In this document: positions 12,795 through 41,776 of the stretch, piece after piece | How the letters are laid out: every line of letters starts with the position of its first letter | How positions within the stretch are numbered: the stretch's first letter is position 1 | Origin: Bacteroidota bacterium | GTDB taxonomy: Bacteria; Bacteroidota; JABWAT01 | DNA length: 41,776 nt | Assembly: GCA_017303995.1 (NCBI GenBank) | Contig: JAFLBE010000039.1 | Span: forward strand, 1-41,776 | Reading direction: 5' to 3' | Made by a program: the position numbers and the translations under genes | The notes under the pieces: model-generated | What the model was told of the DNA's origin: nothing | Databases searched by the model: none | The model's input: the letters and a program-made list of their open reading frames with translations, nothing else

Positions 12795-13627
12795 TTGTTG
12801 TTTTTGATGTCGGCCAGAGTAAAACAGTTGCGGGAATTTTCACTGATAGTGGTGATCTGGTAATTTCAAAATTATTTTCAGGTCGTGATAGTTTGTTATC
12901 CGAAAAAAATGGAATTAAATCCTTTCTGGATCACAGGGATCTAAAACATATTATCGTTGGAGTTGCGGGTCTTTCCAGACTACATGAAACATGGAAAACT
13001 GAATTTCTTTCCATAGCTGAAACTGCTGGTGTTCCAATTGGCAGCACTGGTTTTTTTTCAGATGCCGAACTGTTTGGATTTCAGTTATCTCCTGGTTCGT
13101 TGGGTCTTAGTATTGGGACAGGATCTGTCATCCTAAAAAAGGAAAATGATGGAAAAATATCACTTTTTGGTGGATGGGGATATTTGTTTGGTGATGAACT
13201 TTCGGGTGTGTGGTGGTTCCGGGAAACGGTAAGGCAGGCTTTGTGCGAACTTGAAACAAATTCAGGTAATACAAAAGTCTTAGACTGGTTGTGCCGCAAA
13301 TATGAAATAATTCCCGAACGAGGCGTACTCATTAAATCGGTTTACAATTCTGAGAGAAATATCCAGGCTCAAATTGGTTCTGAATCGCTTTCGATGTTTC
13401 AAGCATCCCGATGGATGAAAAATTCGATGAAGACTGGAATTCAGACTTTCTTCGAAAATGTCCCCAATGATTTTAACCATGTCTGCTTTCAGGGCGGACT
13501 GTTACTTTCCTCAGATTGGCTTCAATCTGAAATTATTCAATATGTTAAAGGAATCAATCCTCATGTTTCATTTGAAACGATTGATTCCTTGCTTCCCGGA
13601 GGTTTCCAGTGCTGGAAAAGTCTTTAA
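12791..13627 (+). CDS. BadF/BadG/BcrA/BcrD-type ATPase, N-acetylglucosamine-kinase-like
   Basis: 278 residues of the ASKHA fold. Phosphate-1 loop FDVGQSKTVAGIF lies at the start, HIIVGVAGLSR is the linking strand, LSIGTGSVILKK is the phosphate-2 loop, and GGWGYLFGDELSG is the segment shared by GlcNAc kinases and BadF-type ATPases. QGGLLLSSDWLQ is the adenosine motif. Cytoplasmic; the likely activity is ATP-dependent phosphorylation of an amino sugar. It lies between the penicillin-acylase homologue (4-bp overlap) and the NagZ fusion (19-bp overlap), which supports phosphorylating GlcNAc or a related sugar released by NagZ. Exact substrate is inference. There are no cysteine clusters as in the benzoyl-CoA reductase activators. 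Confidence 0.8.
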   Translation: MIVVFDVGQSKTVAGIFTDSGDLVISKLFSGRDSLLSEKNGIKSFLDHRDLKHIIVGVAGLSRLHETWKTEFLSIAETAGVPIGSTGFFSDAELFGFQLSPGSLGLSIGTGSVILKKENDGKISLFGGWGYLFGDELSGVWWFRETVRQALCELETNSGNTKVLDWLCRKYEIIPERGVLIKSVYNSERNIQAQIGSESLSMFQASRWMKNSMKTGIQTFFENVPNDFNHVCFQGGLLLSSDWLQSEIIQYVKGINPHVSFETIDSLLPGGFQCWKSL

Positions 13628-16533
13628 AATTTGGGTTATTCTTTTTGTTTTTAGGTTCTGTCTCCTGCTCATCTTCAAATCAACCTGGTCAACCTGTTGC
13701 TCAGGTTACTCCTGCAGATTTAACGGGATCTGAGAATATAAGTGCGGGTTTACCTCAACCTGAAGAACGACCCTTTGGCTGGTGGTCTGACAGTGTTTTT
13801 AAAACACTATCCGTCAGACAAAAAGTTGGTCAGCTCATATTCCCGAGAACCAATGCTCATTATTTTGCTGAGGATTCCAAGTCGTACATCCGGATAAAAA
13901 AATTAATCAACTCTGAAGAAATTGGCGGAGTTGTGGTATTTCAGGGTGATGTTATGGAAGAAGCAACGGTTCTGAATGAATGGCAATCTGAAAGTAAACT
14001 TCCGTTATGGGTCATGCAGGACACTGAAAATGGATTGGCGATGCGAACGAGGAATGCAACTTTGTTCCCTCATATCATGTCTTTGGGTGCCATTAATGAT
14101 ACAACACTGACCAGAAAGTATGCAAAAGTTATTGCTCTCGAAAACCGTGCGGTAGGTGTTCACCATGCACTTGCCCCTGTTGTTGATGTGAATAATAATG
14201 CAGAAAACCCGGTAATAAATGTACGTTCTTTTGGTGCAGACCCTGAACTAGTTGGAAACCACGGCCTTTCCTATGTAAGAGGAACAGAACAGGGCGGACA
14301 GATCGCAACCCTTAAACACTTTCCCGGGCATGGAGATACAGGTACAGATTCTCATGTTGATATTCCGGTTTTGCCTTATTTAAAATCACGGTTAGATTCA
14401 GTTGAACTTAAGCCGTATAAAATGATACTTTCAGCATCAAATCCCTCGGTTATGATTGGTCATTTGGCATTACCAAAAATTACCGGGAATTATGAACCTG
14501 CTACCTTATCTGGCAATCTCTTAAATTCGATTTTATTTGGTGAGCTTAGTTTTCGGGGTTTAGTTGTTTCTGATGCAATGGATATGGGTGCAATTGTTAA
14601 AAATTATGGAAATGTCAAAGCTGTAATTAAGTCAATTGATGCAGGAGTTCATTGTATCATTTTACCGGTTGGTGAAGAACAAGTTATCGATGGTGTAGTT
14701 CAGGCAATCGCTGCCGGTGACTTAAATCAGGCCAAAGTTGACTCAGCCTGTCTTCGCATCCTCAGATTAAAAGAACAATTCAGTTTGAATAAAAACCGGT
14801 ATTCTGATATCAGGAATGTTCGAAAGGTTGTTGCAACGGGCGAACATCTTGCATTGGCTGAGGAAGTTGCAAACAGATCCTTGACCCTGCTGAAAAATGA
14901 TAATAAAATTGTCCCCTTTTCTGGAAAAACAAGCCGTCGCTTGCTCATGATCATTCTTTCCGAAAACCAGGATCCGGCAACCGGAGACATTCTCGTAAAA
15001 AGCCTTCGTCAGACGTCCCGAAAAGTTGAGGCCATTTTGTTGGATAAGGGATCAAATTCCTTAGATTATGATATTGCGACTAAACGTTTAAACGCGTATT
15101 CAGAGGTTATATTAGTTAGCCACATGAATACCTTGAGTTCAAAAGGAAAAACATCCTTTGGTCCTGAAATTTCAGACTGGCTGTCCAAAAACAAATCAGA
15201 GCTTATAAAGAAAAAAACAATATCTATCGTCCTGGGAAACCCTTATGTCGTGAATGCATTGGATTTTTCGGATGCTGTTATTTGCACGTATTCGGTTTCT
15301 GATAATTCTCAGCGTGCAGTTGTTGCTGCACTGAATGGTGAAATCCAATTTGAAGGAAGATTGCCTGTTTCACTCATTCGATTCAAGTCTGGTTCGGGTA
15401 TTGTTACAGGTAAAAAGACCGGAAATGAACTCCAGATGGTCGCATGCGAAACAGACCTACCGGAATTCTACAAACTCAAGACCTTTGTTGAAGAATCGAT
15501 TCTTGAGGGTGTTGCACCTGGAATGGCCGTTAGTGTGGTTGGTCTTGAGGGAGTAGTTTTCCAAAAAACATTTGGGAAATTTACTTATGAAACTACTTCG
15601 CCCTCCGTTCAATGTTCTACCCTTTATGATCTGGCCTCGCTCACCAAGGTTTTGGCTACAACACTTTCACTTATGAAACTTTATGATCAGAATCGGCTAA
15701 ACTTAGATTCAAGGCTAACCGACTTTTTCCCCGAAATTTCTGATTCAGCTAAGAAAAAGATTACCCTTCGAAATCTATTAACTCATACCAGTGGGTTTGA
15801 ATCCTGGCGACCCTTCCATCTTTTGGGAGAACCATCAAAAACCGAAATAATTAACACCATTCTTAATGCAAAACTCGCCTATCAGCCAGGTGACTCATCC
15901 ATTTACAGCGATTGGAATTTTATTCTTCTGGCTCAAATTGTTGAAAAAATTTCGGGACTGCCACTTGACCAATTTGCCTACCAGGAAATTTATTCACCAC
16001 TTAATCTTAAAAATACGCTTTTTAATCCGTCTTCGAGAGAATTGACCACAATTGCACCAACTGAAATTGATTCTGTTTGGCGGAAACGATTGGTTCAGGG
16101 GACGGTTCATGATGAAACTGCACAATTACTGGGTGGTGTATCTGGACATGCAGGATTATTCAGCACAATTCAGGATGTTTCAGTTATTGTTCAGATGCTG
16201 CTGAATAAAGGTGAATACAGAAGCTCAAGAGTTTTCTCACCCGAAACAATTGATCTGTTTACAAAGCTTTCAAGTGGTAAAGACCTTCGGGGACTTGGTT
16301 GGGATATTAAATCGCCAAAAGGGTATACCAGTGCTGGAACTCTGATGGGATCAAAAACGTACGGTCATCTTGGTTTTACAGGAACCAGCTTGTGGATTGA
16401 TCCGGAAATGAAAATTGGGGTAGTTGTGTTAAGTAACCGAGTTTACCCAACACGTGCAAACAAGAAAATCTCGGCATTTCGACCTAAAATATATGATCTG
16501 GCCATTGAAGGTGTTAAAAAAATCAGAAAGTAA
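13609..16533 (+). CDS. GH3 beta-N-acetylhexosaminidase (NagZ) fused to a serine beta-lactamase-family domain, lipoprotein
   Basis: 974 residues. A hydrophobic signal with Cys20 (GSVSC-SSSNQPG) suggests a lipoprotein. The GH3 domain (about 60-400) contains KHFPGHGDTGTDSH (K236 onwards, the Asp-His dyad of NagZ) and the nucleophile loop VSDAMDMGAI (D322). A GH3 C-terminal-like domain follows (about 415-600). Residues about 625-974 form a class C beta-lactamase/esterase domain with S677-L-T-K680, Y766-S-D and H920-L-G-F-T-G-T. NagZ removes GlcNAc from muropeptides; the second domain may act on peptide or ester groups. The GTG start is set by GGAGG at 13598-13602, 6 nt upstream and within the preceding gene. 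The same fusion is known in Bacteroidota. Confidence 0.92.
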   Translation: MLEKSLKFGLFFLFLGSVSCSSSNQPGQPVAQVTPADLTGSENISAGLPQPEERPFGWWSDSVFKTLSVRQKVGQLIFPRTNAHYFAEDSKSYIRIKKLINSEEIGGVVVFQGDVMEEATVLNEWQSESKLPLWVMQDTENGLAMRTRNATLFPHIMSLGAINDTTLTRKYAKVIALENRAVGVHHALAPVVDVNNNAENPVINVRSFGADPELVGNHGLSYVRGTEQGGQIATLKHFPGHGDTGTDSHVDIPVLPYLKSRLDSVELKPYKMILSASNPSVMIGHLALPKITGNYEPATLSGNLLNSILFGELSFRGLVVSDAMDMGAIVKNYGNVKAVIKSIDAGVHCIILPVGEEQVIDGVVQAIAAGDLNQAKVDSACLRILRLKEQFSLNKNRYSDIRNVRKVVATGEHLALAEEVANRSLTLLKNDNKIVPFSGKTSRRLLMIILSENQDPATGDILVKSLRQTSRKVEAILLDKGSNSLDYDIATKRLNAYSEVILVSHMNTLSSKGKTSFGPEISDWLSKNKSELIKKKTISIVLGNPYVVNALDFSDAVICTYSVSDNSQRAVVAALNGEIQFEGRLPVSLIRFKSGSGIVTGKKTGNELQMVACETDLPEFYKLKTFVEESILEGVAPGMAVSVVGLEGVVFQKTFGKFTYETTSPSVQCSTLYDLASLTKVLATTLSLMKLYDQNRLNLDSRLTDFFPEISDSAKKKITLRNLLTHTSGFESWRPFHLLGEPSKTEIINTILNAKLAYQPGDSSIYSDWNFILLAQIVEKISGLPLDQFAYQEIYSPLNLKNTLFNPSSRELTTIAPTEIDSVWRKRLVQGTVHDETAQLLGGVSGHAGLFSTIQDVSVIVQMLLNKGEYRSSRVFSPETIDLFTKLSSGKDLRGLGWDIKSPKGYTSAGTLMGSKTYGHLGFTGTSLWIDPEMKIGVVVLSNRVYPTRANKKISAFRPKIYDLAIEGVKKIRK

Positions 16534-32841: not shown

Positions 32842-35355
32842 ATGGCGGGGACCTTCTTTGATAGCGGGATGTTTGCCACTAATACCGTACGTGGAAAACT
32901 GATCCGGAACTTTGCTCTGGTAGTTGCCATCCCGGTAGGTATTATTGCCGTAGTTCTTCTTTTAACAATTATTTTTATTACTTCCAATCAGGCCGATGAT
33001 TCTGCTGCCCAGCAGTTGTTAAGTGCAAAGGCAGCTATGGAAGAACAGGGTAAAATTCTTACAAAGACGATTTCCACCCTGAATAATGATATTTATTCAA
33101 GAGTTTCAAACACAATCGGGTCATCAGAGTTTGTTGCTTTGATGTCGAAATACAACCGGTCGCCGAATATTCCTGAAAAAGATGCTACCCGGGAGGATTT
33201 GAATAGTGTTGCATTTGACAACATTGTTTCTTACGAACTCAGCTTTTTTACTATTCTTGATAACCGTGGTCGTGTAGTCACCCGTGCTACTGACCCGGCA
33301 GCTTATGGTGATGATGTTTTTAACCGGGATTATTCCGGCCAGAAATCAGTGAGCCCGATTAACCAGTTTGTAGACGCCGCCTCGAAAACCCTAACGAACC
33401 GTACCGGACTCATGATGATCCCGGAAGAAATTCTGAAAAAGGAATTGCTGATTCAGGCAAATCTACCTATGAATGTTCAGGGTTTCCGTCCTGCTGAACA
33501 ACATCTCAGTGATCTTGCTTCTTTTGATGTCGTCAACGAAAAGGGTGAGAAGACCAAGGTTTATGTGGGTGTTGGCGCTGTGGTTGTTCTTCCGATCGTA
33601 GACCGGCTGCAAAATGTTCTTGGAGTTGTCGTCAGTGGTAAAATTCTCGCCCGAAACAATAATTTTCTAACCCAGAATTTTCACTCTATTGTAGAACAAA
33701 ATCGTGCAGCTGCAAGTATTGTGGCAAACGGAGTCCGGATTGCTTCAACAGAATCTGTTTCCTTTGGTGATAATATTAATCAGATTGCACTTGGTATCCC
33801 GGTAAATGCAGAATTCCTGACACAGGCAGATTCAGTTGGGTCAGTTGTTTTAACTGAAGTCAATACCGGTGCAACCGAAAAAGCCTACATGCAGGTATCG
33901 GCTTTAACCACCTCTCTTTCCTTCAAAAAGGATGATCCCGTCCTGGCTTACGGAATCATTTCTACGCCTTATGCGACTTATGGAACAGTAATTGAAGAGC
34001 TTCAGGATTCGGCAAGTACCCTGTTCTGGATTTCGGTTTTTATCTTAATCGTGTCAATTGCTCTTGGTTTTGTTGGTGCTATTTATTTTGCCAGAAATTT
34101 ATCAGGTTCTCTTACAACAACGGTTGATAACCTTCTGGTTACCATGGATCGGGTAGCACACGGAGATTTTAATGCGCGAACCAATATTCACACCGGTGAT
34201 GAATTTGAAGAACTGGGATCAAGATTCGACGAGATGATCAGGCGTCTTTCAGCTCTGATTGAAACGGAAGCCGAGCGGGATTCGATGCAAAAGCAGTTAA
34301 CTAACTTGCTTGTGGTTGTATCCAACTCAGCAGAGGGTGATTTTACCCAGCGAGCTACTGTAACTGAAGGTGCTCTTGGTGCGCTTGCAGATTCATTTAA
34401 CCTCATGGTTGATGACCTTGGCCGCCTTATCCGTGAAGTTCAGTCAGTGACCCGTCAGGTATCTGAATCAGCCAAAGAAATTCTTGCTTCAACGGAAGAA
34501 ATGGCGCATGGTGCTGAAGAACAGTCCATTCAGGTAACGAACGCATCAGCAGCCGTAGAAGAAATGGCAGCATCTATCCGGCAGGTGGCAAACAACGCTG
34601 ACTCCGCCGCAGAAGCTGCATCGAAAGCAGCTGAAGTAGCTCAATCAGGCGGTAACATCGTACTTGAAACGATTGAAGGTATGAGAAGAATCCGGTCTAC
34701 AGTACAGGATTCAGCCCAAAAAATTAAATCACTTGGTGAGTCTTCAAACGAAATCGGTAAGATCGTACAGGTAATTGACGAAATCGCCAGTCAGACGAAC
34801 CTTCTTGCTCTTAATGCAACAATCGAAGCTGCACGGGCCGGTGACGCCGGACGGGGTTTTGCCGTGGTAGCTGATCAGGTTCGTGAACTTGCTGAACGTT
34901 CTGCAAAAGCAACGAATGATATTTCTCAGCTGGTGCAAACCATTCAGGCTGAAACCCAGGAAGCTGTACATGCCATGGAAAAAGGTACCGCGGAAGTGGA
35001 AAAAGGTACCAGACTTGCGGATGAGGCCGCCCGGGCTCTTGAGCAGATCCGATCAGTGGTTCAGCAGTCAACAGAACTTATTCAGGAAATCTCCCTTGCA
35101 GCTAAGCAGCAGGATATTGCATCAGCCGGCGTAGTAATGGCGATGAACGAAGTGTCACAGATTGCGAAGCAGTCTCTGATCGGATCCCGTCAATCTGCTG
35201 CATCAGCTACAGATCTTGTGGAAATCACGAAACGTCTGTCACAGTCAGTAGCAAGATTTAAACTGCCGGGTGGTGGTGAACTTCTTGAAACCGGAGCAGG
35301 TGCTCAGTTCTTTAGTGATTACGGCAGCGGGGAAATGAAAATTACCTCAAATTGA
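32842..35355 (+). CDS. Methyl-accepting chemotaxis protein, HAMP pair, PilJ-like
   Basis: 837 residues. TM1 at about 19-47, a large extracytoplasmic sensor of about 345 residues (Cache-like by length and pattern), TM2 at about 393-416, a HAMP at about 417-470 ([20 protein letters not shown]) and a second HAMP-like unit at about 488-530 ([20 protein letters not shown]), similar to the RATVTED repeats in PilJ-class receptors. The signalling domain (545-837) has the hairpin tip [20 protein letters not shown] followed by [20 protein letters not shown] (about 640-680). A GEM-type methylation region precedes it. Signals through CheW and CheA to control a motor, probably a type IV pilus or gliding apparatus. 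Followed 11 bp later by cheR. Confidence 0.93.
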
Positions 35356-35366
35356 GCATTTAATCT

Positions 35367-36179
35367 GTGACTGATGTTCAGCTTCTGAACAAATTATATT
35401 TTTACGTTAATCTTAAAACCGGACTGGTTCTTACAAAAAACCAGTTCGGAAATTTGAAAATCCGTCTGACCCGTCTTTTGACAGATCAGGCTGTGAATAT
35501 GGAAAATCTGGATTCAGTTCTTGATGGTAATCCGGCTTTGTTTGAATCACTTCTTGAAGAAATTTTGATCAACGAATCATATTTTTTCAGAAATGAAGAT
35601 CATTTCAGGGTACTCAGGGATATTATTTTTCCGGTCATTATTGACAAAAACCATTTTCAGAAGGATAAAAGAATTCGTGCTTTAAGTGTAGGGTGCAGCA
35701 CCGGCCAGGAGCCACTTTCCATCCTGATTGCCTTTGCTGAATCCAATCACACACGGGATAAGATTGATTTTCATATCGATGCAATTGACCTTTCAAGGAA
35801 GGCAATTTTAACTGCACTTTCAGCGGAATATACAAAAATCCAATGCAGGGGGCTTTCTCCGGAACTAAAGGAAAAATATTTTTTTAGAACAAAGGGAGAC
35901 AAACTAAAGCCAACCGCCACCTTTCTTGATAATATTTCCTACTTCCATGGAAATATTCTGAGTCATGAGTTATATGAAGGCTGCTACGATATCATTTTTG
36001 CACGAAATACTTTGATTTATTTCGATGATGTAAACTCTGAACGGGTTAAGCAAAAACTGATCAGAGCAATGAAACCAGGAGGCTATCTTTTCCTTGGCGA
36101 ATCAGAAATCGGATGGGGGCTTGGAGAAAAGGTTCAGTCAATGAAATTCAATCAGTCAATTATATACAGAAAACGGTAA
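35367..36179 (+). CDS. cheR: Chemotaxis protein methyltransferase CheR
   Basis: 270 residues starting at GTG (CTGTGACTGAT). CheR transfers methyl groups from SAM to MCP glutamates for adaptation. The N-terminal helical domain is followed by the conserved INESYFFRNEDHF and the SAM motif LSVGCSTGQEPLSI; HIDAIDLSRKAI and IIFARNTLIYFDDVNS match the substrate and SAM pocket; PGGYLFLGESE ends the fold. Length is normal. The stop lies 3 nt before the Hpt gene. Confidence 0.95.
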   Translation: MTDVQLLNKLYFYVNLKTGLVLTKNQFGNLKIRLTRLLTDQAVNMENLDSVLDGNPALFESLLEEILINESYFFRNEDHFRVLRDIIFPVIIDKNHFQKDKRIRALSVGCSTGQEPLSILIAFAESNHTRDKIDFHIDAIDLSRKAILTALSAEYTKIQCRGLSPELKEKYFFRTKGDKLKPTATFLDNISYFHGNILSHELYEGCYDIIFARNTLIYFDDVNSERVKQKLIRAMKPGGYLFLGESEIGWGLGEKVQSMKFNQSIIYRKR

Positions 36180-36182
36180 ATT

Positions 36183-36587
36183 GTGAGTCTCTCAAAAGTT
36201 GATATTATGGAGTTGTTTCTTGTTGAGGGTTCAGAGCATGCCCGTGATTTGGAACTCTGTCTGGCTTTGCTGGATGGAAAAGCTTCGCAATCAGTTTTTA
36301 ATGACATGCATGTTCATGCTCATACTATTAAAGGCGCAGCCTCAATGGTTGGTTTTATGAATACCAGCCATGTGTCCAGGTTTTTAGAAAGAGTACTTTT
36401 TGAACTTGTTAATGAAAAATTGCCTTTTGATGATGATGTTAGGCAATTTATTGTTGAAGCAACTGGAATCGTGCATAAGTTTATCAGAAACATTACGGTT
36501 GGCGAACTGAATGAAGCCATCATTCTGAAAGATATCGCCGGGAAATACGACCGGATCATTTCAAAATTGGAAGTCCAAAATGCGTAA
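36183..36587 (+). CDS. Stand-alone histidine phosphotransfer (Hpt) protein
   Basis: 134 residues starting at GTG. A single Hpt four-helix domain: MELFLVEGSEHARDLELCLA, then the phosphoryl-accepting H47 in HAHTIKGAASMVGF (HxxKG pattern), followed by amphipathic helices to the end. It would relay phosphate between a kinase and a response regulator. The giant kinase has its own Hpt, so this gene supplies a second, separate one. Its stop overlaps the kinase start by 8 bp (ATG at 36580), which suggests coupled translation. A fragment of a once longer kinase N-terminus is an alternative. Confidence 0.85.
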   Translation: MSLSKVDIMELFLVEGSEHARDLELCLALLDGKASQSVFNDMHVHAHTIKGAASMVGFMNTSHVSRFLERVLFELVNEKLPFDDDVRQFIVEATGIVHKFIRNITVGELNEAIILKDIAGKYDRIISKLEVQNA

Positions 36588-39500
36588 CTGGAAAAAAATT
36601 AATCTGCTTGGAAATCTGAGTTCCAAACAGGAAACCGTTGGTGATGCGGTTCGGAAATTTGTCCAGTCTCTTGTAAATCAGGTTGAAACAACCCATGATG
36701 GAAGTGACCGTGTAAGTCTCCTTGCAGCTGTATTAAAGAAAGCCCTTACTTTTTCAGGAAACGCTCTCCCCCCGGTTTCCAACTCTGTTTTTAATGAATT
36801 TTTTCAATTTCTGACCTCACTTCCTTCCGAATTTAATCCTGAAAATCCGTTTGATGAAAAGTACGACCAACTTGCCTCCCAGATCAAAGAAACTACAGGG
36901 TATTTGATCACAAGTATCCATGAAATTCAGAATGAAACGGAATTAGCTGAATTATACACCTGGGCAGGATTAGTTCTTCCGGAAACTGATCACTCAATCC
37001 TACCTTCTGCAACAAAGTCACCTGTTCAAATTGAAAAGCAGGTTTCAGAAGATCCTGACAATATGTTAAAGGATCTTTTTGAGGAAAATGATTCAACAGC
37101 TATTGAATCAGCCCAGCCTGCCCGTGAGGTAAAACCTGTTAGTTTTGCGACTCAATCTGATTCCGTACGTGCCGAATTCACAGGCCAAACTTCAAAACTT
37201 GAATTTGGTTTTAATCTTTCTAGTCTTTTTACGTCTGAACCTGCAATTGCGACTTCCCAACCTGTTATTCCTGCCGCACCTACTTTTGAAGAAGATTATA
37301 CCAAACATACTTCAACCAGTTTGTCTGAAGAACTTGGAATTGAAACTGAGAATGATGAACAGGTTAAAGGGCTGCAACCCGCTGAAGAAATTTCTGAAAT
37401 TTCATATCAGGAATCTGAGGGTGATCTTGTCATCGAAGAACTTGTTCAAGCAGATACAGATGCTATCGCCGGTGAAGAGTCATTGGAAGAAGATTTGGTT
37501 GCCGGTGAAGAATCAATCGAGCAAGCGTTTGTTGATGCTGAAGAGCCCATCATTGCCGAACAACAAACCGAAGATGAATTTTCTGCTATAGCTGATGAAA
37601 GTATAAATGAACCGTCCCTTCAGGAAGAATTGACTGAATCAGACGCCTTTATTTCTGAAGAAACAGATGAAACTATCCAGGATGAATCTGAAGTTTTGGC
37701 GGAATCCATTGAACAGGAAGCTGAACTAACAACAGAAGCAAGTATTGAGGACGAGGCAACTGAAGATAAATCTGACCTGATTGGCAGTGAAGAAACAGAG
37801 TCTGTGGCAGCTCCACAGGATAATATGGCCTGGGTTCTCCACCAAATTTTAGGTTCCTGGGATGAAAATCTGGCTGAAAACCCCAATTTTTCAATCATTC
37901 ATCAGGGACTTTCAGAACTTTCAGCAATGCCTAATCCAATTCCATCTTTCCGTGAAGTTAGTACTTTACCGGAATATCAGGAATTTATTGATTTTCTTGA
38001 GGCCGTTGACTTGAATCCGGTTTTTGACCGTGATTTGGTTTCCCAGCAAATCGATCAGATTGCAGGCCGGGCATTTGAACTGTTTACTGAAATTTTGTTT
38101 TCCCAAACTCATGATGAACTCGACGAGTTAGTTTCAGCTGAAAACGAAGAAATGGCCATTGAGGATGAAACTGCAGTTGAAGAAACCCCAACACCAGCGG
38201 AAGTTGATGCAATTCAAACTTCAACCGAAATAGAAGAACTGGTAACCGATGAGAGTCAGGAAGAGTTACTTGATTCTGTAGAGGATTCTGATCTTGTTTC
38301 AGATGAAAATGAAATTGAACAAGAATTAACTGAAGGTTCCTTGGTTTCTGAGGGTGTTGAAGAAGAAATTCAGGAAATTTCTGTTGATGAAACTGAATCT
38401 CTGGTTTCTGATAATAGTATTGACTCAGATAACTTAGAAGTTAGTGATGAGGTGACGTCAGAAACCGAACTCATTGAAGATGAGCCAATTTCAGAGGAAA
38501 TGTTTGATCTTGCTGAACCTGAGGGTCTACAAGCCGGAATAAATCTTCATGAACACGATGAATCCATTTCGATACCCGAGGAAAGTTTTGATGAGGGTGA
38601 GGGTAGAGTTGGTGTTGATTCAGTTGATTATTTCAGAGCCATTCAAATTATCTATCAGGATATTAAAAAACTAAATTCCGTTCAGGGAAACACGACAGGA
38701 ATTAATCAGTTTGTCGATTTCAGCTTATCGCTTAAAGATCCCGTTGAAGTTTTAAGAGAACATCTCAATATTCAGATTGCTAAGGATTTTGTTGAATATG
38801 TAGATTATCTGCATGCAAAATTTGATGGCGGCGCAAAAGAAGCCTATGAAGAAATGATGGCTCATCGGATGGAAATTGCCGATCAGCTATATCAGGTTCT
38901 AACAGAAAACCCTGAAATTACGGGTGAAGAGGTTCCGGAAACATTCTCAAAAACAGTTGAAGCGCCTGATCATTTTACACCTTCAACTCTTCATCTGGTA
39001 TCTGATGAAGATATTGAAGAATCACTTGCGTTGATGGATGAACGTGCAGACGTTAAACCTGAAGAAGAAATTACTGAAGAGTTAGATGAAATAATTGAAA
39101 CAGAAGAAGTTGCTTCTGAATCCGACGAAACTGAAATGGAAATGATTTCAGATGAGGAAGAAATTCTAGCTGAAACTGAAAATTTGGATTCTGAGGCGGA
39201 ATTAATAGAAGAAACTATTTCTGAAGAAGTTGCTGAACTGACTGAAGAACTTGCAACCGAACCGGCTGTGGAAGAATTGAGTGCACTTTCTGAAGATGAA
39301 CTTATTTCTGATGCTACTGTTGAGGTTTCAGAAGAACTGGTTGAACCTTTAGAAGAATCTTCTGAGTTGATTGAAGAACCAATTGCTTCAGAAGAAGCAT
39401 TAATTGAAGAAACAATAAGTGAAGAAGAACTCGTAGAAGAATTGTCTGAACTGTCTGAAGAAACCCTTGATGACACTTCACTTCCTGATGGTGAACCTGC

Positions 39501-41776
39501 AATTAGTGAAGAAAATGAACTTTCCGAAATAAAAGATGAACTTACTGAACTTCAGGAAGAAGAAACCCTGGAGTTAAAGGATGAATCGGAACAACTTCTT
39601 GAAATTGCTGATGATTCAACCCAGTTACTCGAACTTGAAGAAAAACCAGTTGTAAAAGAGCAACCTGTTTATCAATCTGAAGCACAGGCAAGAAAACAGA
39701 AAAAAGAACTTAATGAGATTCAGCAGATATTCCTGATTGAAGCTGATGAAAATATTCAGAAAATCAGTGGTGATCTTCTCGAACTTGAAAAAGATTTGGG
39801 TAATATCTCGATAATTGACGGAATTTTGAGATCTGCTCACACCCTTAAAGGCTCTGCAGCCATGATGAAGTTTGCCAATATGAGCAAACTTGGTCATAAG
39901 ATGGAAGATGTGTTTACTCTGTTGCGGGATGAAAAAATTCCTGCTGACCGTGATCTCATTGATATCATGTTAAAAGGAACTGACATTCAGTCATTGATGC
40001 TCACCTCTTTGAGGGAAGAAGGTCATGATGAAGTTCCGGGCCTTGAAGAAGCCATTTTCAAATTAGCGCAATATCTAAAAAAATTAGAAGCAAAATCTGA
40101 AGGTAAAGAGTTTGTTGCAGATAAATTCGTTGCAACGGAACCTGCCGTAAAAGAAATTGTACCGGTTCCTGCCGGTGGAAAATCCGAGCTGCAGCAAGCC
40201 GAATCCCGTGCCCCTCAAATGGTAGACGGCCGGCCAAAGGGTGTGGTTGCCGAGCAGACACTCCGGATTAATATCACAACCCTGAATAACCTGATCAATC
40301 TTGCTGCGGAACTTCTTATTTCGCGTAACCGGATGAATAATCAGCTTGGGTTTATGGAAGGAACTCTTCTGAAACTTCAGAAGGAAAAACTGCTTTTAAA
40401 TTCTATTATGAAGAAGGTTTCCCTTTTTGCTGGAAAGACAACCGATTCTGCATCAGGGTATTTCTCATCTGAAGAGCAGGGAATTCTGCAGGATTTCGCT
40501 GAGACTGAATTTGACCGGTTCAGTGATCTGGATATTATCCTCAGAGATATGAAGAGCAACCTTTCGAACTTCGAAGATTTGAGTTCTGAAATCCGTGGAT
40601 TCTCAGATGCCTTCCGTCAGTCGATCATGTCAGTATCATCCATTGCGAATGAATTGAACGTTGAAATTATGTCGATGCGGATGGTGCCTGTAAAACACAT
40701 GTTTATCAGGTTCCAGCGGTCTATCCGGGATATCGGCCGTGAAGAAAGTAAAGACGTTGACCTGAAAATTGAAGGTGAAGATACCCGCCTTGATAAAACT
40801 GTAATGGAAGAAGTTATTGAGCCGATTATGCACTGCGTTAGAAATGCAGTTTCGCATGGTATCGAACTTCCCGAAAACCGGAAAAATAAAGGGAAGAGCG
40901 AAACCGGACTCATTACTCTGCGAGCCTATCAGGACGGAAATCAGGTAGTTCTTGAAGTTGAAGATGACGGAAATGGAATTGATGCCCAGCGTTTAAAAGC
41001 TGCTGCGATCAATAAACGTATTGTTTCTCCCGAACGGGCAGAATCAATGACCGATTCTGAAGCTATGGAACTCATGTTTATCCCCGGTTTTTCAACTGCT
41101 GAAAAAGTAACCTCACTTTCTGGTCGTGGTGTTGGAATGGACGTCGTGAAAAACGTCGTTACCAAGTTCAAAGGAAATATTTCAGTCAAATCAACTTTAG
41201 GTAAAGGATCCTGTTTTACCATCCGGTTGCCATTGACACTTGCCATTAATCAGTCTCTTCTAATCCAGGCAGCTGGCCGTACTTTTGCATTCCCGTTAAG
41301 TTCAGTTGATGAAACTGTTGAACTGGTTCTTGAAAATATTCAGAGAATCGGGGAGCAGGAATTAATTACTGTTCGTGATCAGACAATTCCATTGATCCAT
41401 TTGAGTCATGTTATCGGAGTTGAAGAAGATCCTGCAACGATGAAGTTGAAATATCCGGTAGTAATTCTTTCTGATAGTGACCAGAAAATTGCGATCCGTG
41501 TTGACCGGCTTATCGGTAAAGAAGAAATCGTTGTAAAAACTTTGGGTTCCCACCTGAAAAACGTAATGGGTGTTATGGGAGCTACCGTTTTGGGTGATGG
41601 ATCTGTAATTTTAATTCTTGACGTTTCGTATCTCTTCCGTTACTGGCAGGGTGGAAAAACTGCTGGTGTCAGCGCACTACGAAGTAGTTACAGCTCATCT
41701 CCAAGAATGGATACCTCTGAATTCATGATGGATGAAGTTGAAACAGAAGAGGCACCAAAACGACCTGAACAGCAAA
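36580..41776 (+). CDS. Giant CheA-type histidine kinase (ChpA/PilL-like), 3' end outside window
   Basis: Open without a stop from ATG 36580 to the end of the window (1732 complete codons). Order: three helical modules (about 21-114, 415-508, 684-780) separated by acidic linkers; Hpt (1047-1160) with H1087 in SAHTLKGSAAMM; a basic linker; dimerisation domain from about 1225 (LRINITTLNNLINLAAELLI) with the TEFDRFSDL helix typical of ChpA/PilL kinases; ATPase domain with N box HCVRNAVSHGIE (1418-1429), DDGNGID (1462-1468) and GRGVGMDVV (1515-1523); CheW domain (about 1555-1690); low-complexity tail. A receiver domain probably follows, as in ChpA. It should phosphorylate a CheY-type regulator for twitching or gliding control. 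The long N-terminal extension is not part of known CheA proteins. Confidence 0.9.
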   Translation, partial: MRNWKKINLLGNLSSKQETVGDAVRKFVQSLVNQVETTHDGSDRVSLLAAVLKKALTFSGNALPPVSNSVFNEFFQFLTSLPSEFNPENPFDEKYDQLASQIKETTGYLITSIHEIQNETELAELYTWAGLVLPETDHSILPSATKSPVQIEKQVSEDPDNMLKDLFEENDSTAIESAQPAREVKPVSFATQSDSVRAEFTGQTSKLEFGFNLSSLFTSEPAIATSQPVIPAAPTFEEDYTKHTSTSLSEELGIETENDEQVKGLQPAEEISEISYQESEGDLVIEELVQADTDAIAGEESLEEDLVAGEESIEQAFVDAEEPIIAEQQTEDEFSAIADESINEPSLQEELTESDAFISEETDETIQDESEVLAESIEQEAELTTEASIEDEATEDKSDLIGSEETESVAAPQDNMAWVLHQILGSWDENLAENPNFSIIHQGLSELSAMPNPIPSFREVSTLPEYQEFIDFLEAVDLNPVFDRDLVSQQIDQIAGRAFELFTEILFSQTHDELDELVSAENEEMAIEDETAVEETPTPAEVDAIQTSTEIEELVTDESQEELLDSVEDSDLVSDENEIEQELTEGSLVSEGVEEEIQEISVDETESLVSDNSIDSDNLEVSDEVTSETELIEDEPISEEMFDLAEPEGLQAGINLHEHDESISIPEESFDEGEGRVGVDSVDYFRAIQIIYQDIKKLNSVQGNTTGINQFVDFSLSLKDPVEVLREHLNIQIAKDFVEYVDYLHAKFDGGAKEAYEEMMAHRMEIADQLYQVLTENPEITGEEVPETFSKTVEAPDHFTPSTLHLVSDEDIEESLALMDERADVKPEEEITEELDEIIETEEVASESDETEMEMISDEEEILAETENLDSEAELIEETISEEVAELTEELATEPAVEELSALSEDELISDATVEVSEELVEPLEESSELIEEPIASEEALIEETISEEELVEELSELSEETLDDTSLPDGEPAISEENELSEIKDELTELQEEETLELKDESEQLLEIADDSTQLLELEEKPVVKEQPVYQSEAQARKQKKELNEIQQIFLIEADENIQKISGDLLELEKDLGNISIIDGILRSAHTLKGSAAMMKFANMSKLGHKMEDVFTLLRDEKIPADRDLIDIMLKGTDIQSLMLTSLREEGHDEVPGLEEAIFKLAQYLKKLEAKSEGKEFVADKFVATEPAVKEIVPVPAGGKSELQQAESRAPQMVDGRPKGVVAEQTLRINITTLNNLINLAAELLISRNRMNNQLGFMEGTLLKLQKEKLLLNSIMKKVSLFAGKTTDSASGYFSSEEQGILQDFAETEFDRFSDLDIILRDMKSNLSNFEDLSSEIRGFSDAFRQSIMSVSSIANELNVEIMSMRMVPVKHMFIRFQRSIRDIGREESKDVDLKIEGEDTRLDKTVMEEVIEPIMHCVRNAVSHGIELPENRKNKGKSETGLITLRAYQDGNQVVLEVEDDGNGIDAQRLKAAAINKRIVSPERAESMTDSEAMELMFIPGFSTAEKVTSLSGRGVGMDVVKNVVTKFKGNISVKSTLGKGSCFTIRLPLTLAINQSLLIQAAGRTFAFPLSSVDETVELVLENIQRIGEQELITVRDQTIPLIHLSHVIGVEEDPATMKLKYPVVILSDSDQKIAIRVDRLIGKEEIVVKTLGSHLKNVMGVMGATVLGDGSVILILDVSYLFRYWQGGKTAGVSALRSSYSSSPRMDTSEFMMDEVETEEAPKRPEQQ

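Follow-up and report, generated by a model that had tools for sequence, protein, structure and literature searches.

A CheA-type kinase with an N-terminal array of related helical modules in a chemosensory gene cluster with MglA

The window analyzed here, a stretch of DNA of 41,776 nucleotides, ends within a chemosensory gene cluster. The genes and features of this cluster that lie in the window are as follows:

32842..35355, plus strand: methyl-accepting chemotaxis protein, upstream in the cluster (Pfam HAMP, MCPsignal)
35367..36179, plus strand: CheR methyltransferase (Pfam E=2e-41)
36183..36587, plus strand: stand-alone Hpt protein of 134 aa, overlapping the start of cheA (Pfam E=2.4e-9)
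36580..41775, plus strand: CheA-type kinase, 1732 residues in the window (open reading frame; Pfam Hpt, H-kinase_dim, HATPase_c, CheW)
36580..36618, plus strand: conserved N-terminal stretch MRNWKKINLLGNL, residues 1-13 (orthologue comparison)
36643..36972, plus strand: module M1, residues 22-131 (profile-profile comparison, AlphaFold helices, dN/dS)
36973..37815, plus strand: acidic linker 1, residues 132-412, predicted disordered
37201..37230, plus strand: short linear motif EFGFNLSSLF, residues 208-217, between M1 and M2
37816..38121, plus strand: module M2, residues 413-514 (profile-profile comparison; AF2 at pLDDT 93.6 on the 38-module alignment)
38122..38625, plus strand: acidic linker 2, residues 515-682, 37% D+E, predicted disordered
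38626..38931, plus strand: module M3, residues 683-784 (conservation, dN/dS, helix plan)
38932..39699, plus strand: acidic linker 3, residues 785-1040
39718..39984, plus strand: Hpt (P1), residues 1047-1135, phosphorylatable His1087 (Pfam E=1.2e-12; AHTLKG at 1086)
40252..41640, plus strand: dimerisation 1225-1260, HATPase 1414-1553, CheW-like 1559-1687 (Pfam)

All four core domains expected of a CheA histidine kinase score above the Pfam cut-off, the N, G1, F, and G2 boxes are intact, and the Hpt histidine is present. The reading frame runs off the end of the window, and contig C53 of the same genome opens in frame with the tail of the protein, a C-terminal receiver domain of 127 residues at the end of that contig, which also closes the CheA orthologues. 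The contig break (window 41776/G000:C53 end) falls just before this receiver, and both the gene and the cluster continue on C53. Between the Hpt and dimerisation domains, no Pfam match to a P2/CheY-binding domain was found at E<=1. Similarly, a Pfam search of the protein returned nothing before residue 1047, which bears out the original prediction that the first 1040 residues are not a recognized part of CheA. Two further open frames, of 161 aa (38991-39476, minus strand) and 148 aa (37145-37591, plus strand), overlap the acidic linkers and are most likely artefacts, namely a Ser-rich antisense and a Leu-rich frame-shifted linker reading. Elsewhere in the window, positions 13609-16533 encode a glycoside hydrolase family 3 protein fused to a beta-lactamase-like domain (974 aa).

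The first 1040 residues contain three copies of a helical module of ~100 residues, set in fast-evolving acidic linkers. Three diverged repeats on acidic linkers had been predicted from the segments NEFFQFLTSL, QEFIDFLEAV, and KDFVEYVDYL, which begin exactly as given, at residues 72, 467, and 735. The FD pairs proposed as a common landmark do occur at 91, 482, and 748, but they are unaligned between modules and absent from the Chlorobia modules, and the proposed helix match of ‘6 of 17’ positions is shifted by about three residues against the profile alignment. The repeats themselves are borne out by profile-profile comparison, in which each module was compared with all other modules, itself left out, with 60 column shuffles as control: M1 gave p=70% (E=4e-5), M2 p=95% (E=7e-8), and M3 p=83% (E=9e-6), and none of the three scores was reached by any shuffle (0/60 each). 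An HMM built from Chlorobia modules alone picks up the window family’s M2 (i-E 3e-4 in L009 and 1e-4 in a second run), outscoring all 1500 shuffled sequences; in single-sequence HMM searches, M1 and M3 match weakly (1.7-13 bits), yet are correctly placed in four of four orthologues. Within the window family alone, none of the direct comparisons M1-M2, M1-M3, and M2-M3 reaches significance (p 1-7%); thus, the homology is visible only through relatives and would be unprovable for a reader with the window alone. At the level of sequence profiles, M1, M2, and M3 are confirmed as homologous members of one family. A global alignment of whole N-termini across classes placed M2 against M3 and was not used for folding.

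AlphaFold run on an alignment of 38 modules predicts six helices at a mean pLDDT of 93.6, spanning positions 2-17, 24-35, 40-47, 51-65, 71-76, and 78-98 (16, 12, 8, 15, 6, and 21 residues, respectively). To guard against circularity, a second prediction covered residues 1-822 and drew on just four orthologues, with no cross-module alignment. M2 reappeared at pLDDT 78-89; in M1 and M3, the helices were spaced alike, with low confidence (about 40-64), and the linkers were mostly below 40. In this run, helices start at relative positions 0/22/38/49/69 in M2, 0/22/37/47/69 in M3, and 0/23/-/48/73 in M1, whose low-confidence helices lie at residues 20-38, 43-58, 68-84, and 93-112; helix 3 is missing from the window family’s M1 in the AlphaFold models. 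Comparing predicted structures of the three segments had been proposed as a check, and the predicted helix plans agree. In these models, M1-M3 share one helix plan, a claim that rests on the plan together with the profile homology.

The module resembles no catalogued domain in the libraries searched. Foldseek searches with the module model gave no match in the PDB at E below 1 and nothing in BFVD, a viral fold library. Weak Pfam matches are scattered over 43 families with almost no agreement among module members; RsbU_N, matched by one of the 38 modules, and Phage_TAC_19, matched by two, were not taken as identity. The best PDB sequence matches, a designed helical protein (E 4e-4) and ArpC5 (E 8e-3), were read as helix composition. 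Of the identities originally offered, that of an unknown module is the one that fits, and the modules may, as was also suggested, bind proteins. Separately, a ~260-residue protein family of Bacteroidota (L144, L145, L147, L150, and others) shows weak hits to the module, with scores of 16-25 bits over positions 25-106 in several of its homologues. These are probably chance or a distant helical likeness; the family may consist of heme-oxygenase-like helical proteins.

A scan with the CheA core recovered close orthologues in two MAGs (L009, L010) and distant ones with equally long N-termini in Chloroherpetonaceae and Thermochlorobacteraceae (L011-L013). The window’s own class comprises four genomes, all with the module-bearing CheA (4/4), and its orthologues keep three modules. 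The conservation among orthologues that the original prediction called for is found. Residues L9, L10, and G11 of the N-terminal stretch are also kept in Chlorobia L011-L013, and STLHLV (38983-39000), near the start of acidic linker 3, is likewise conserved. In the class Chlorobia, a strong match to the CheA core occurs in 12 of 98 genomes, i.e., in all 12 outside family f8, and in 0/86 genomes of that family, whose size and gene content lead us to read it as Chlorobiaceae. Wherever cheA is complete in non-Chlorobiaceae Chlorobia, it has four or five modules; in G132, G271, and G279, the gene is split over contigs, and only the modules seen were counted. A Chlorobia-only module profile finds four modules in Thermochlorobacteraceae and five in G086. 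G007, which we take to be probably Chloroherpeton thalassium, gave five matches, one of them partial. Its cheA reading frame (L123, G007:C1 around 2829500) is broken inside M2, with M1 and half of M2 in another frame (313 aa) upstream of an ORF of 2433 residues; the break may be a sequencing error or a real frameshift.

Among 80 CheA loci from the genome scan, the module occurs only in L009-L013. Across 394 genomes of the phylum, full-length modules were found only in these CheA proteins and in one copy on another contig, in the contaminated genome G389; the profile used includes the window modules, so matches in the window’s own class arise by construction. The window’s genome encodes a second CheA-like protein (G000:C40:47178-48962, open frame 1074 aa), in which the module search found none.

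Between the window and L010, dN/dS is 0.08 for M1, 0.09 for M2, 0.04 for M3, 0.29-0.34 for the linkers (0.34 for linker 1), and 0.012 for the kinase core, ratios that are rough since synonymous sites are near saturation. Judged from these substitution rates, the modules are under purifying selection. M3 is the most conserved, being 95/78/58% identical to L010/L009/L121. Linker 1 has only 11-38% identity between orthologues outside its linear motif, whose consensus, xFGFxLxxLF, occurs in the M1-M2 linker of 11/11 readable orthologues, as well as in the broken frame of the twelfth, and in just 10 of 20000 shuffled linkers. No surface position is conserved in every module; each of them could accordingly bind a partner of its own, or no partner at all.

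The gene order of the window’s own class is MCP-CheR-Hpt-CheA(REC)-CheB-CheW-CheW-REC/PATAN/roadblock-roadblock-MglA, where the portion from CheB through the two CheW, REC/PATAN(DUF4388)/roadblock, and roadblock genes to MglA was read in L010 and in the window’s genome. The GTPase of the cluster matches solved MglA (PDB chains) at E 1e-67 to 3e-74. The MglA of this class (L010:16148-17071; also C53 of the window’s genome) extends past the match to solved MglA in a long C-terminal tail rich in Pro, Ala, and Gln. In Chlorobia L013 and L123, REC-PATAN and roadblock genes follow cheA in the same order, then MglA. MglA and roadblock genes adjoin cheA in most Chlorobia, with mglA about 136 kb from cheA in G136. 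A close MglA accompanies the CheA core and its modules in all 12 non-Chlorobiaceae genomes (12/12), and a remote MglA is present in 1/86 Chlorobiaceae. Chlorobiaceae are reported to be nonmotile, and Chloroherpeton to glide (PMC9318685).

From gene order and co-occurrence, a functional link between the pathway and MglA is most likely, although the co-occurrence lies in one clade and may represent one or few evolutionary events. Because the kinase shares an operon with MglA, a gliding and polarity GTPase, and has relatives in gliding green bacteria, the module-bearing CheA probably steers gliding. Type IV pili and GldL gliding were considered as the motor and set aside for want of a match above cut-off. 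PilT has none in nine genomes (four of the window’s class, five Chlorobia), with weak sub-cut-off matches to PilT-family proteins in the window’s class; GldL has none in 98 Chlorobia, where a divergent GldL may escape the model. SprA is present in 8/8 genomes tested.

The closest functional parallel is the Frz system of Myxococcus xanthus, a chemosensory system that sets polarity through MglA (PMC4316618). FrzE is likewise a CheA-receiver fusion, and the Frz-MglA/MglB pathway acts on MglA polarity (PMC4316618, PMC12632253). A link to MglA and a roadblock protein, as in Frz-type systems, is found in the gene cluster. In contrast to Frz, the che genes and mglA here lie in one cluster together with a REC-PATAN-roadblock regulator, and in contrast to FrzE, the window-family CheA bears new modules in an array at its N-terminus. 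ChpA of Pseudomonas aeruginosa, of the Tfp class, is likewise a very long CheA with pre-kinase domains, a C-terminal receiver, and a part in surface motility (PMC12632253). The Tfp class is marked by several phosphotransfer domains and a C-terminal receiver. At our locus, the receiver lies on C53, and the number of Hpt domains varies in step with the architecture, with one Hpt in CheA plus one stand-alone gene in the window’s class and two or three within CheA in Chlorobia; the locus may or may not belong to this class. No PilT scores above cut-off in the window’s genome or the Chlorobia tested.

We tentatively favor, at somewhat less than even confidence, a reading in which the window protein serves as the kinase in a chemosensory pathway acting on MglA and the module array is a multivalent docking platform. 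The N-terminal 1040 residues would form a flexible acidic tether with helical modules and short linear motifs, and the array would concentrate pathway partners near the phosphorylated Hpt. Candidate partners are the REC-PATAN-roadblock regulator, the roadblock protein, MglA, or a polar hub. Receptor signals may thereby reset cell polarity and gliding reversals. The array would take over the role of P2 in E. coli CheA. The P2/CheY-binding domain of classical CheA is likewise an auxiliary domain on flexible linkers, and the proposed docking role is alike; P2 sits between the Hpt and dimerisation domains and is not all-helical, whereas the window protein lacks P2 and has its modules ahead of the Hpt.

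Nearly as likely as docking is that the modules are self-association or localisation domains, which would cluster the kinase or anchor it at the pole or another structure with no docking of MglA or response regulators. The copy numbers of three, four, and five on long linkers are as expected of multivalent clustering, and FimL of P. aeruginosa, a relative of the ChpA N-terminus with Hpt-like domains that lack the histidine, is polar (PMC3019171); against this, the modules differ in conservation, which suggests distinct partners. We consider it unlikely that the array serves chiefly as an entropic spacer, with small domains that do no more than maintain the solubility of a long tether. The linkers are indeed long, acidic, and variable, but a spacer accords poorly with the strong purifying selection on the modules (dN/dS 0.04-0.09), with the 58-95% identity of M3 between orthologues, and with a short motif conserved inside a linker.

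Still less probable, to the point of being rejected, is the original suggestion that the modules are degenerate Hpt domains, as at the N-terminus of ChpA. The modules are all-helical and lie upstream of a true Hpt, and ChpA does bear Hpt-like domains without the histidine (PMC10782961); however, profile comparison with 21 Hpt domains of the same proteins gives p 0.1-1.8%, i.e., below 2%, and the scores of the window modules against Hpt profiles are reached by column shuffles. The confident six-helix model (pLDDT 93.6) takes the place of a long four- or five-helix bundle, and no Hpt is found among the 48 PDB matches listed by Foldseek at E up to 10. Likewise, Pfam Hpt matches none of the modules, and the HxxKGxx phosphorylation motif is absent from M1-M3, its only occurrence in the window protein being at 1086. 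The extra domains of ChpA are phosphotransfer domains (Xpt), whereas the window modules are not. FimL, a polar protein akin to the first 563 residues of ChpA and unlikely to be phosphorylated (PMC3019171), is set apart by its description as Hpt-like domains in a separate protein. Finally, that the three segments are unrelated helical stretches alike by chance is scarcely credible: the window-only comparisons fell short of significance, but the leave-one-out profiles with relatives (p 70-95%, 0/60 shuffles) and the equal helix spacing predicted with no cross-module alignment speak against it.

The auxiliary domains named in a survey of thousands of CheA proteins (PMC10782961) are P2, receiver, and CheC/CheX only; the module is absent from that list and therefore appears unreported. 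It is apparently a CheA auxiliary domain not described before, present in an array and with no PDB fold match; the kinase itself belongs to a known kind. Returning to the docking platform, its boldest form, in which a new domain with a fold not in the PDB, in three to five copies on CheA, plugs receptor signals directly into the MglA switch as the gliding-steering unit of Chloroherpeton and its kin, is rather doubtful as a whole. Neither PilT nor GldL scores above cut-off in these organisms among the Chlorobia tested, and our literature search found no paper naming MglA together with Chloroherpeton. The whole candidate circuit is present in all sampled non-Chlorobiaceae Chlorobia and in 0/86 sampled Chlorobiaceae. 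A che cluster whose last genes encode a PATAN regulator, roadblock proteins, and MglA offers a concrete candidate gliding-control circuit for the Chloroherpeton clade.
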